Origin: Candidatus Nomurabacteria bacterium | GTDB lineage: Bacteria > Patescibacteriota > Minisyncoccia > Phycocordibacterales > UBA9973 | DNA length: 57,055 nucleotides | Direction of reading: 5' to 3' | NCBI GenBank assembly: GCA_943350445.1 | Contig: CALRAE010000006.1 | Location: 1-57,055, forward strand | Shown here: one piece after another, positions 28,165-32,382 of the stretch | How the letters are laid out: each line of letters starts with the position of its first letter | Numbering within the stretch: position 1 is the stretch's first letter | Position numbers and translations under genes: made by a program | Notes under the pieces: generated by a model | The model's database searches: none | The model's input: only the letters and a program-made list of their open reading frames with translations | What the model was told of the DNA's origin: nothing

Positions 28165-28193
28165 AAAATGATTGTATAGTATTGTTATTCTTG

Positions 28194-31100
28194 ATGGAGG
28201 ATAATCAAAACACACAGACTAAGCCAAAATCAGACGCAGCGCTTCGCGAAGAAGCTATTTTAGAGTTTTGGAAAGAAAATAATATCTTTTCGAAGACTTT
28301 GAGTGCGACAGAGGGTAAAAAGGAGTATGTTTTTTACGAAGGTCCACCTACAGCGAATGGCAAACCAGGGATTCATCATTTAGAAGCACGTGCATTTAAG
28401 GATGCTATACCGAGGTATAAGACAATGTGTGGATTTCATGTCCGTCGAAAGGGTGGGTGGGACACTCATGGATTACCCGTAGAGCTTCAGGTGGAGAAGA
28501 AGCTGGGACTTAACTCTAAGAAGGCAATAGAAGAATACGGTATCGCAAAATTTAATAAAGAATGCAAAGAAAACGTGTGGGAGTATTTAGATGTGTGGAA
28601 TAAATTCACAAAGCGTATCGGTTTTTGGGTGGATCAAGAAAATCCTTATGTGACGTATCACAACAATTACATTGAATCTGTTTGGAATGTTGTTAAAAAA
28701 GTAAATGAACAGAAATTACTCTATAAAGATTATAAAGTCGTCCCATGGTGTCCACGCTGTGGAACTGTGCTGTCTTCACATGAGCTTGCGCAGGGGTATG
28801 AGGATGTAAAAGATCTTTCAGTTTATGTGAAGTTTAAGATTATAGGTTTCACAAAGGCGTATTTTTTAGCGTGGACCACGACTCCATGGACATTACCTGG
28901 GAATGTTGCTCTTGCTGTTGGTAAAGATATTGATTATGTGGAGATTAAGGTTGGTGAGGAGATTCTTGTGCTTGCAAAAGAACACCTCTCCGTTATTGCT
29001 GAACCATATGAAATTATTGCAGACCATAAGGGTAAAGACATGGTTGGTATGCAATATGAATCCCTTTTCCCATTTCTAACTAAAACTATTTCTGAAAATG
29101 AGAAATCAAAATTGGATAAAGCTTTCAAGGTATATGTAGCGGATTTTGTAAACACAGGAGATGGTACTGGTATCGTACATACGGCTGTAATGTACGGACA
29201 AGATGACTTTGTGCTTGGGACCAAAGTCGGCTTGCCCAAGCACCATCTTGTGAATCTTGAAGGCAAATTTATAAAAGGTACAGGATTCTTAGAGGGCCGA
29301 TTTGTAAAAGAGACAGATACAAACGGTAAGCCTACTCTAGCAGTAGATATTGTAGATGATCTAAAGAAAAGAAATTTATTCTTCAAACAAGAAAACTATA
29401 AGCATTCATATCCACATTGTTGGCGTTGCCATACTGCGCTTATATATTATGCACGAGATTCATGGTATATACGTATGTCTGACCCAAAGATTAAAAAACA
29501 ACTGATCAGTGAAAATAAAAAAATAAATTGGGAGCCAAAATATATACGTGATGGCCGTTTCGGTGAGTGGCTAAGAGAGATAAAGGATTGGGCGATTTCT
29601 CGTGAGAGGTATTGGGGTACACCACTACCAGTATGGAATTGTGATTCTTGTAAAAAGGTAGATGTTGTGGGAAGTATTGAAGATCTAAAAGATAAAACAA
29701 AAAAATCTGGTAATAAATACTTTGTGATGAGACATGGTGAATCTGAAAGTAATATAAAGAATAATATGCATGGAGTTGTGTCTTCTCGAGCCGAAACTGT
29801 GGATCATTTAACTTTAAAAGGTCAGGCCCAAGTAGGTAAGACAGCAAAATACTTGAAGGGTAAAAAGTTTGATTTGATCTTTGTTTCACCATTTATGCGC
29901 ACTCGAGAGACGTTAGATATCCTAAAAAAGAATCTAGGTTTTAAAGATGAGCAAATCATCTTTGATGAGAGGTTGGTAGAATTAAATGCTGGCGATTTTG
30001 AGGGAAAGCCTTGGGATGAGTATAGAGGCATGTTCAAAAATGAGAAAGACAGGTTTATGAGCCCTATTCATGGAGGGGAATCATTACTTGATGTGAAAAA
30101 AAGGATGGGGGATTTTATATATGAGCTAGAAGAAAAATATCAAGATAAAAAGATACTTATAATCTCACATGGTTCTCCACTTTGGATGTTCTTTTGCGTG
30201 CTAAATGGATTTAATGTTGATGAATCAATTGCTATGACTGGTGGAGTATTTAGACATGCTGAACAAGTGGAAAGAGATGCAGATGGTAAATTTAAACTTT
30301 TGGCCAATGCTGAGGTTAGAGATTTGGATTTTCTGTATATTCCCCATAACGAAAATTATGAATTAGATTTGCACAAGCCTTATATTGATAAGATAAAGCT
30401 TGTCTGCAAATGTGGTTTTCTTCTAGAACGAACCAAGGAGGTTATGGATGTATGGTTTGATTCTGGTGCTATGCCATTCGCTCAGGACCACTATCCTTTT
30501 GAGAATAAAAAATTGGTGGATAAAAAAGGCTATCCGGCGGACTTTATTTCAGAGGCTATCGATCAGACTCGTGGATGGTTCTATACTCTTCACGCTGTGG
30601 GAGTGCTTATGGGCCGAGGCAGAGCATACAAAAATGTTATTTGTCTTGGACACTTACTCGATGCTTCTGGTAAAAAGATGTCGAAGTCTCTAGGGAACGT
30701 TGTTGACCCTTGGGTTATGATGGAGAAATATGGGGTGGACACACTGCGTCTATGGATGTATTCAGTCAATCAACCTGGTGAATCGAAGAATTTTGACGAA
30801 AAAACAGTGATGCTTCTTCATCAGCAAGTATTCGGATTGCTCTATAATGTTCTTGCTTTTTATGAACTCTATAGAGACAAAAATTTAGAGACAGACAATC
30901 GTCCTAAATTAAAAAACATCTTGGATCAATGGATTTTAGCTAAACTAGACGAACTAATAAAATTATCTACAGAGAATCTTGATAATTATAAATTACTTGA
31001 ACCTACGAGGGCTATGCGTGATTTTATTGGAGACCTCTCTACTTGGTATTTGCGTCGTTCTCGTGAACGAATCAAAGAAGGGGATAAAGAGGCTAAGCAG

Positions 31101-31730
31101 ACCTTGTATTTTGTTTTGAAAACAGTGGCGAAAATCATGGCACCCTTGGCACCATTTACAACAGAGGATTTGTGGTTAAAATTGAGAAATAAAAAGGACT
31201 TTGAAAGTGTGCATTTGGCAGAATGGCCACAGGCAGGAAGGGTAAATGATAAAGTTATTGAGAAGATGAAAATGACTCGTGAGATTGTTTCTTTGGGTCT
31301 AAAAGAAAGACAGAAAGCTGGTTTACCCGTTCGACAGCCACTCTCTAAACTAGAAGTTAAAAAATTTGATCTAGAAAATGAGTACATCGAATTGATTAAA
31401 GATGAATTGAATGTAAAAGAGGTAAGACAAGATAAAAATCTTGAAGGGGATATGCAACTTGATAAAGTTATTACCCCAGAATTGAAAGCGGAAGGAGACT
31501 ATCGCGAACTTTCACGTGCTATTCAGGATATGAGAAAAGAAAAAGGCCTCACGCCGAGCGATGTGATTTCTCTTGTTTTTGAAACGAGCCAAAAAGGCAA
31601 AGAGTTGTTAGAAAAATTTGCTTCTGATATGAAAAAAACCGTTCTAGTATCAAAAATAGAATTTAAAGAAAACGATGGGCAAGAGGTAAAAGTGGGGGAT
31701 TTAGTTTTCAAAGTAAAAATTAATAAATAA
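28194..31730 (+). CDS. ileS: Isoleucyl-tRNA synthetase with an inserted histidine-phosphatase domain
   Basis: A class I synthetase of 1178 residues from the ATG at 28194; a TTG at 28182 is also in frame. Synthetase parts: TANGKPGIHHLEARAF (HIGH region), GWDTHGLPVE, zinc-type VPWCPRCG, the editing domain with WTTTPWTLPGN, FDSGAMPFAQDHYPF, and KMSKS as ASGKKMSKSLGN. Between GSIEDLKDK and DLHKPYID, in the catalytic domain, residues about 500-720 form a full phosphoglycerate-mutase-like phosphatase. It has VMRHGESESN (Arg513, His514), SPFMRTRETL, LVELNAGDFEG (acid) and ISHGSPLW (second His659). All catalytic residues of that domain are kept. The -10 box TATAGT at 28175-28180 leaves a very short leader. 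Confidence 0.95.
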   Translation: MEDNQNTQTKPKSDAALREEAILEFWKENNIFSKTLSATEGKKEYVFYEGPPTANGKPGIHHLEARAFKDAIPRYKTMCGFHVRRKGGWDTHGLPVELQVEKKLGLNSKKAIEEYGIAKFNKECKENVWEYLDVWNKFTKRIGFWVDQENPYVTYHNNYIESVWNVVKKVNEQKLLYKDYKVVPWCPRCGTVLSSHELAQGYEDVKDLSVYVKFKIIGFTKAYFLAWTTTPWTLPGNVALAVGKDIDYVEIKVGEEILVLAKEHLSVIAEPYEIIADHKGKDMVGMQYESLFPFLTKTISENEKSKLDKAFKVYVADFVNTGDGTGIVHTAVMYGQDDFVLGTKVGLPKHHLVNLEGKFIKGTGFLEGRFVKETDTNGKPTLAVDIVDDLKKRNLFFKQENYKHSYPHCWRCHTALIYYARDSWYIRMSDPKIKKQLISENKKINWEPKYIRDGRFGEWLREIKDWAISRERYWGTPLPVWNCDSCKKVDVVGSIEDLKDKTKKSGNKYFVMRHGESESNIKNNMHGVVSSRAETVDHLTLKGQAQVGKTAKYLKGKKFDLIFVSPFMRTRETLDILKKNLGFKDEQIIFDERLVELNAGDFEGKPWDEYRGMFKNEKDRFMSPIHGGESLLDVKKRMGDFIYELEEKYQDKKILIISHGSPLWMFFCVLNGFNVDESIAMTGGVFRHAEQVERDADGKFKLLANAEVRDLDFLYIPHNENYELDLHKPYIDKIKLVCKCGFLLERTKEVMDVWFDSGAMPFAQDHYPFENKKLVDKKGYPADFISEAIDQTRGWFYTLHAVGVLMGRGRAYKNVICLGHLLDASGKKMSKSLGNVVDPWVMMEKYGVDTLRLWMYSVNQPGESKNFDEKTVMLLHQQVFGLLYNVLAFYELYRDKNLETDNRPKLKNILDQWILAKLDELIKLSTENLDNYKLLEPTRAMRDFIGDLSTWYLRRSRERIKEGDKEAKQTLYFVLKTVAKIMAPLAPFTTEDLWLKLRNKKDFESVHLAEWPQAGRVNDKVIEKMKMTREIVSLGLKERQKAGLPVRQPLSKLEVKKFDLENEYIELIKDELNVKEVRQDKNLEGDMQLDKVITPELKAEGDYRELSRAIQDMRKEKGLTPSDVISLVFETSQKGKELLEKFASDMKKTVLVSKIEFKENDGQEVKVGDLVFKVKINK

Positions 31731-31731
31731 T

Positions 31732-32382
31732 ATGGTAAGAAAAATTTCTGAGATATATGCTGAGTATAAAATCATGCCAAACTTGCAGATGCATATGTAT
31801 CGTGTGGCTGCCGTGGCTTCCTTAATTTATGATAATTTCAATGAACCTCTTAATAAAGAAGAAATAATAACTGCTTGTCTACTCCATGATATGGGAAATA
31901 TTATTAAGTCTGACCTCAGTTTTCTACCTGAACTTTTAAAACCAGAAGGTTTAGAATATTGGCAAAAAGTGAAAGATGGGTTTATCGAAAAATATGGTAA
32001 TGATGACCACGAAGCTCATGTAAAAATACTAAAAGAGCTTGGGCTGTCTACTGAAATTATTGGGCTGGTAGACCAAGTTCGATTCTCTCTTTTGTGTGCA
32101 CAGCGAGACAAGGCTGATATAAATATAAAAATAACCCATTATGCTGATGGGAGAGTGGACCCATACGGTATTGTGTCTTATGAAGAACGAATGGAAGAAG
32201 CCAAGTCGCGATATAAAGATAGAGATAATTTATTTCCTCTTAAAAATCGAGAGAAACTAATAGAGTGTGGTAAAGATATGGAAAGACAAATTTTTGCAAA
32301 ATGTAAAATAAGACCAGAAGATATAAACAATGAAACAGTGGCTCCAATCATTTCAAGCTTGAGAAATTTTGTGATAAAATGA
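31732..32382 (+). CDS. HD-domain metal-dependent phosphohydrolase
   Basis: A 216-residue protein with a YfbR/HD-type arrangement: NLQMHMYRVAAVASLI (first His), EEIITACLLHDMGNI (HD pair) and a later Asp in HYADGRVDP. It probably hydrolyses a nucleotide or another phosphorylated small molecule. It starts 1 nt after ileS and is followed after 4 nt by an alpha/beta hydrolase. The substrate is unknown. Confidence 0.8.
   Translation: MVRKISEIYAEYKIMPNLQMHMYRVAAVASLIYDNFNEPLNKEEIITACLLHDMGNIIKSDLSFLPELLKPEGLEYWQKVKDGFIEKYGNDDHEAHVKILKELGLSTEIIGLVDQVRFSLLCAQRDKADINIKITHYADGRVDPYGIVSYEERMEEAKSRYKDRDNLFPLKNREKLIECGKDMERQIFAKCKIRPEDINNETVAPIISSLRNFVIK

Follow-up and report, generated by a model that had tools for sequence, protein, structure and literature searches.

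What is a phosphatase doing within the catalytic body of a tRNA synthetase? The question is raised by a gene of a Candidatus Nomurabacteria bacterium in which a complete histidine phosphatase (HP) had been read, from the sequence alone, inside isoleucyl-tRNA synthetase (IleRS). We analysed this gene within the window, a 57,055-nucleotide stretch of contig CALRAE010000006.1, together with relatives across the phylum. The predicted architecture was borne out, and several features went beyond the first reading of the sequence: recurrence of the HP in ValRS, multiple copies, cassette exchange, a stand-alone form within an operon and fusion to an HD domain.

A predicted phosphatase within the zinc knuckle of IleRS2

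The host gene (Table 1) is an ileS of the IleRS2 type, exceeding the TIGR00392 equivalog cut-off of 621 bits in a profile search that also placed tRNA-synt_1, Anticodon_1 and DUF5915 around the inserted His_Phos_1 domain. Its Foldseek top match was the Priestia megaterium IleRS2 8c8v (TMt 0.83), and it shares its architecture, KMSKS motif and editing, anticodon and C-terminal domains with this enzyme and with IleRS2 of Thermus thermophilus (1ile), differing from both in the phosphatase lodged in the second zinc knuckle. No second IleRS-like sequence was found among the matches listed for its own genome. The KMSKS lysines were invariant across 70 full-length sequences. The class I signature follows the GxHH order found in 58 of the 150 patescibacterial IleRS cores, the window IleRS included, and thereby resembles that of hyper-resistant IleRS2, in which enzymes with GXHH are active and the motif confers mupirocin hyper-resistance (PMC10485003). 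One same-genus group of IleRS carries VxHT at this position.

Table 1. Features of the ileS locus, in window coordinates. Residues are counted from the TTG of the 1182-aa frame.
Feature	Position	Strand	Basis
Isoleucyl-tRNA synthetase gene ileS, IleRS2 type	28182..31730	+	TIGR00392 859 bits; 1182 aa from TTG
Class I signature, GIHH order instead of HxGH	28368..28379	+	Sequence
First half of split zinc knuckle, CDSC, aa 487-490	29640..29651	+	Sequence position
Predicted branch-1 histidine phosphatase cassette, aa 507-728	29700..30365	+	PF00300 108.6 bits; model; structural neighbours
Arg517-His518 of RHG motif; H518 predicted nucleophile	29730..29735	+	R and H in 119/119 fused IleRS HPs
Catalytic Arg573 (SPFMR)	29898..29900	+	119/119 fused IleRS HPs
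Catalytic acid Glu600	29979..29981	+	E or D in 118/119; Gly in L028
Second catalytic His663 (SHG)	30168..30170	+	119/119 fused IleRS HPs
Second half of split zinc knuckle, CKCG, aa 742-745	30405..30416	+	Sequence position
KMSKS motif, intact, aa 832-836	30675..30689	+	Sequence
HD-domain protein, 1 bp past ileS stop	31732..32382	+	PF01966

The inserted domain far exceeds the PF00300 gathering cut-off (aa 514-681, against 21.7 bits, E 4e-31) and is the only PF00300 domain in its own genome, which is 99.6% complete. It sits, as originally predicted, between the synthetase segments GSIEDLKDK (VVGSIEDLKDK, aa 495) and DLHKPYID (aa 729). The two cysteine pairs CDSC and CKCG flank it as well, so that the second zinc knuckle of the catalytic body is divided by the insert. 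Of the interval first assigned to it, 29650-30365, the end was retained and the start was moved, since base 29650 is out of frame and the HP begins at about 29700. The second catalytic histidine is likewise present, but the number given for it, His659, holds only when counting from the ATG at 28194, a likelier start for ileS than the TTG at 28182.

Structure prediction of the fusion, suggested at the outset as a check, was run with AlphaFold2 and returned a mean pLDDT of 90.5 and a pTM of 0.84; the HP modelled alone reached 93.1 and 0.90. Its phosphoglycerate-mutase-like fold is common to PspA (4ij5/4ij6), PhoE (1h2e) and CobC (6nru/6e4b), which aligned at Z 19-21 (top 20.9, to PspA) over ~183 residues with an rmsd of 2.2-2.5 and which share with the insert the catalytic R/H/R/E/H set and a size without the mutase-type insertion. 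In contrast to these enzymes, to which it is ~24% identical, the insert is housed in a tRNA synthetase and falls far under every equivalog cut-off, whether for CobC (TIGR03162, 76.3 bits against 162.9), PspA (NF045917, 65 against 350) or dPGM_arch (70 against 225). As no equivalog cut-off was passed, a substrate is not transferable from known families. Sequence and model agree in presenting the insert as a complete histidine phosphatase of branch 1.

Distribution and conservation across Patescibacteria

The expectation that other Patescibacteria would carry the same insert was confirmed. Most of the 100 relatives compared have the HP within a single open IleRS frame. In a sample of 381 genomes from the phylum it was detected in at least 53 IleRS, one of which (G220) was assigned from frame length alone, and at least 7 ValRS; two further ValRS fusions were typed, bringing ValRS with HP to nine in all. 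A pattern scan of 84,980 species, which is the one source of evidence on occurrence outside Patescibacteria, recovered 323 relatives, with one of the patterns spanning the insert-synthetase junction. The best 80 of these 323 belonged to Nomura-, Vogel-, Wolfe-, Campbell-, Kaiser-, Yonath-, Zambryski- and Taylorbacteria, to other Patescibacteria or to unnamed bacteria. The HP was present in all 78 full-length named proteins. Among named relatives, the one nearest to the window is a Candidatus Nomurabacteria genome, at 72% in the insert. A contig titled Spirochaetia bacterium (L184, QYPD01000003.1) encodes a Wolfebacteria-like HP-IleRS and is probably misbinned or misnamed. The insert is not universal: the IleRS of G016, G033 and G080 lack it, as does that of G087, a 99% complete genome with zero PF00300 domains.

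Two objections raised with the original prediction, an assembly error and catalytic degeneration in relatives, can be set aside. The fusion recurs in most of the 100 relatives and in the complete Parcubacteria chromosomes CP011215.1 and CP011209.1, which rules out an assembly error, and a degenerate phosphatase is ruled out by the catalytic set, which is kept as given in Table 1 across 119 fused IleRS HPs. Median column conservation over the same domains was 38%. The sole loss of the acid was an E to G change in L028. Across 70 full-length sequences that share 41-81% identity, the catalytic residues of the HP were as invariant as the synthetase motifs; the set was also intact in the 7 of 7 ValRS HPs examined, and it is retained in L083-L087, where the stretch from the catalytic acid to the second histidine is ~30 aa shorter. 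For close, unsaturated pairs with the same HP type, HP dN/dS was 0.032-0.127. The proposed survey of the insert thus found it widespread, with its catalytic residues kept and, as these comparisons indicate, under purifying selection. The HP columns with conservation of at least 95% resemble general branch-1 positions, so nothing in them indicates one common substrate.

Hosts, sites and companion domains

Among the long synthetase frames typed, HP insertion was confined to IleRS and ValRS. Comparison of flanks distinguished about four sites. One is within the zinc knuckle; a second, also used in ValRS, immediately precedes the D-W-F-x-S-G motif; a third follows this motif, ahead of the next catalytic segment (L070, L096, L100); and a fourth separates the catalytic from the anticodon domain (L070, L074). 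Members of family f120 mostly have two HPs per IleRS, and L070 has three. Copies 1 and 2 of double-HP IleRS belong to different lineages in the HP tree, leaving tandem duplication unsupported as their origin, and the ValRS HPs are scattered over several places of the same tree.

The HP also occurs as a separate gene. In L062 and L064 it overlaps or abuts argS upstream, identified by eye from its N-terminal sequence without a profile, and an insert-less ileS downstream. These separate HPs nest within the fused clade, so that the link to ileS has been retained even with a synthetase core of another lineage. Other stand-alone HPs are located far from ileS. Fusions with membrane proteins were seen as well, with an MFS transporter in L077 and with a UptA/DedA-like membrane domain in L076; L109, itself untyped, groups with L076 in the HP tree.

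Other enzyme domains share these synthetases. The 1451-aa IleRS of L074 (4138-8490) has a GNAT acetyltransferase in addition to an HP, which here occupies a different site. The ValRS of L101 (2827-6657) and L099 (1695-5537) combine an HP with a Ser_hydrolase domain, that of L101 having an additional HAD phosphatase stretch. The gene just after ileS in the window encodes an HD protein that is not of the SpoT type and that is 50-62% identical to the C-terminal part of seven relatives (L013, L018, L020, L021, L025, L084 and L087), in which an HD domain fused to the IleRS C-terminus takes the place of the last synthetase part.

Foreign domains on synthetases were known before. CAAD, attached to cyanobacterial ValRS and other class I synthetases, leaves charging intact and acts as a membrane anchor; unlike this non-enzyme, the patescibacterial guest would be an enzyme, one that appears to be swapped between synthetases as a cassette. 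NCBIfam NF040702 (ileS_w_GNAT) likewise describes an IleRS with a foreign enzyme domain, there a GNAT rather than a phosphatase, the same type of guest that accompanies the HP in L074. The window IleRS scores 305.5 against the NF040702 cut-off of 1999 and has no GNAT domain. The domain architecture described here is probably already present in automatic domain databases; the open-access literature searched yielded no description of a phosphatase within IleRS or ValRS, nor of cassette exchange.

Gain, loss and exchange of the cassette

In a tree of 150 IleRS cores from which the HP had been removed, HP presence requires 17 changes, at least 15 of them being forced by well-supported branches; the insert-less IleRS of the same-genus genomes G016 and G033 fall within a clade of fused IleRS. 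By this reconstruction, the HP has been repeatedly gained and lost across the phylum.

The topology of the HP tree, built with FastTree from 206 columns and with many weak branches, conflicts with that of the core tree. The HPs of L083 and L087 form a group with the L084-L086 HPs, yet identity between the synthetase cores is just 42-48%. Mismatch runs in both directions, with 44% identity in the core and 67% in the HP for L085/L083, against 81% and 44% for L009/L015 and 78% and 45% for the window and L005. Identity shifts at the HP edges, beside the short conserved stretches TKKSGN...RHG and PHNxNYELDLH, and this shift, together with the mismatch between core and HP, is the pattern expected from cassette exchange by recombination. 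These alignments indicate that HP domains have been swapped as cassettes between distant IleRS. Repeated gain, loss, doubling and swapping in enzymes for isoleucine and valine suggest that the HP probably does real work.

Proposed function and alternative explanations

What the sequences themselves show is a histidine-phosphatase fold with its catalytic residues intact, purifying selection, a history of repeated gains, losses and cassette swaps, and a form within an operon. From this we infer, as a tentative preference with a reasonable chance of being right, that the insert is an active phosphomonoesterase independent of metals and resembling PspA, PhoE and CobC, borne as a swappable cassette by an IleRS2 that is itself fully functional, and serving a housekeeping or protective role. 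Catalysis would follow what is known of the family: R517, R573 and H663 would bind the phosphate, H518 would accept it as phosphohistidine with E600 as proton donor, and water would then free it. The substrate is most likely some small phosphorylated compound other than glycolytic phosphoglycerate, and it is probably not tRNA. The tether, or the shared operon where the genes are separate, would couple the amount and place of the HP to the branched-chain synthetase, and the HP might clear phosphorylated metabolites or analogues before they disturb IleRS or ValRS. This protective role is suggested by the cassette exchange, the mixed guest enzymes and the GxHH signature. We are aware of no natural inhibitor of IleRS and ValRS that is phosphorylated and that the HP would remove, which makes protection the weakest step, and the HP is dispensable, as the genomes with insert-less IleRS attest, which also counts against the preferred explanation. 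A bolder version, which we consider unlikely, would make patescibacterial branched-chain synthetases platforms for exchangeable enzyme cassettes (phosphatase, GNAT, HAD, hydrolase, HD), reshuffled by recombination at conserved edges in an arms race and shielding IleRS and ValRS from substrate- or nucleotide-like inhibitors of hosts or competitors.

One enzyme family has lodged repeatedly, in one to three copies and with its catalytic residues intact, in the catalytic body of two essential synthetases, so that essential genes of small-genome bacteria can serve as exchangeable enzyme carriers. A single purified protein and a point mutant of it would suffice to test whether charging and phosphate chemistry are linked.

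The main rival, somewhat unlikely in our estimation, is that the HP is an active passenger whose task is unrelated to IleRS, the tolerant surface loops and steady expression of large class Ia synthetases allowing unrelated small enzymes to lodge there in small genomes and to persist for metabolic tasks of their own. The range of unrelated enzymes found in or on IleRS or ValRS, the several HP sites and the stand-alone HPs far from ileS all fit such a passenger, and cassette exchange could reflect a change of substrate; against it, the HP outnumbers the other guests, and the separate HP of L062 and L064 remains beside ileS. Its occurrence in IleRS and ValRS alone among the synthetases typed tells against the passenger and also against a regulator, a distinctly unlikely reading in which the HP would hydrolyse a nucleotide reporting on charging, such as AMP or a (p)ppGpp-related alarmone, and so tie isoleucine charging to the stringent response. 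A RelA/SpoT synthetase was present in 13 of the 14 genomes checked, including the window's own (G000:C8:31406-31744, within a 493-aa frame; the full-length Rel of G330 has 724 aa), the IleRS of the seven relatives described ends in a fused HD phosphohydrolase, and at a single locus (L066:7042-7548) a SpoT-like HD hydrolase lies between a stand-alone HP gene and ileS. These points favour the alarmone link of the original prediction, but the exceptional genome, G361, keeps an HP beside ileS yet has no RelA/SpoT match, and the HD protein of the window is of another type. The original interpretation is partly supported as a whole: the complete histidine phosphatase, its catalytic residues kept under purifying selection and its wide occurrence in Patescibacteria hold, while regulated charging, hydrolysis of an analogue and a part in alarmone metabolism are not established.

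Removal of phosphate from the synthetase itself, as after the action of HipA-type kinases, or from tRNA is, we judge, very unlikely. Some branch-1 HPs act on phosphoproteins, HipA-type kinases phosphorylate other synthetases, and a tether would suit action on the synthetase; however, the HipA_C profile matched none of the 14 genomes, and the HPs are mildly acidic (net charge -4) on a basic synthetase core (+12), which leans slightly against tRNA binding and slightly towards a small substrate. It is highly improbable that the HP is an inactive spacer merely shaping the zinc hairpin: it does take the place of a zinc-knuckle loop, and conservation within the order extends to the linker at its junction, but the catalytic set stays invariant while other HP positions diverge, and HP dN/dS is low. 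Least credible of all, with next to no chance, is that the insert supplies a missing glycolytic phosphoglycerate mutase. Being the only PF00300 domain in a genome where neither iPGM nor the metalloenzyme-type PGM was found, it could appear to fill that gap; yet enolase was not found in this genome either, so the mutase step is not needed there and the reading is rejected for it, and the dPGM models score the insert far under their cut-offs. The failure of the mutase reading, the absence of HipA, the lack of RelA/SpoT in G361 and the acidic HP together led us to choose a small-molecule phosphomonoesterase. G016 and G051, which do have glycolytic genes, possess a separate PGM-pyruvate kinase fusion beside enolase, a further point against a mutase role for the insert. 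In same-genus genomes this fusion is a single frame of ~485 aa adjoining enolase (L245:1722-3179, L242:1965-3410).
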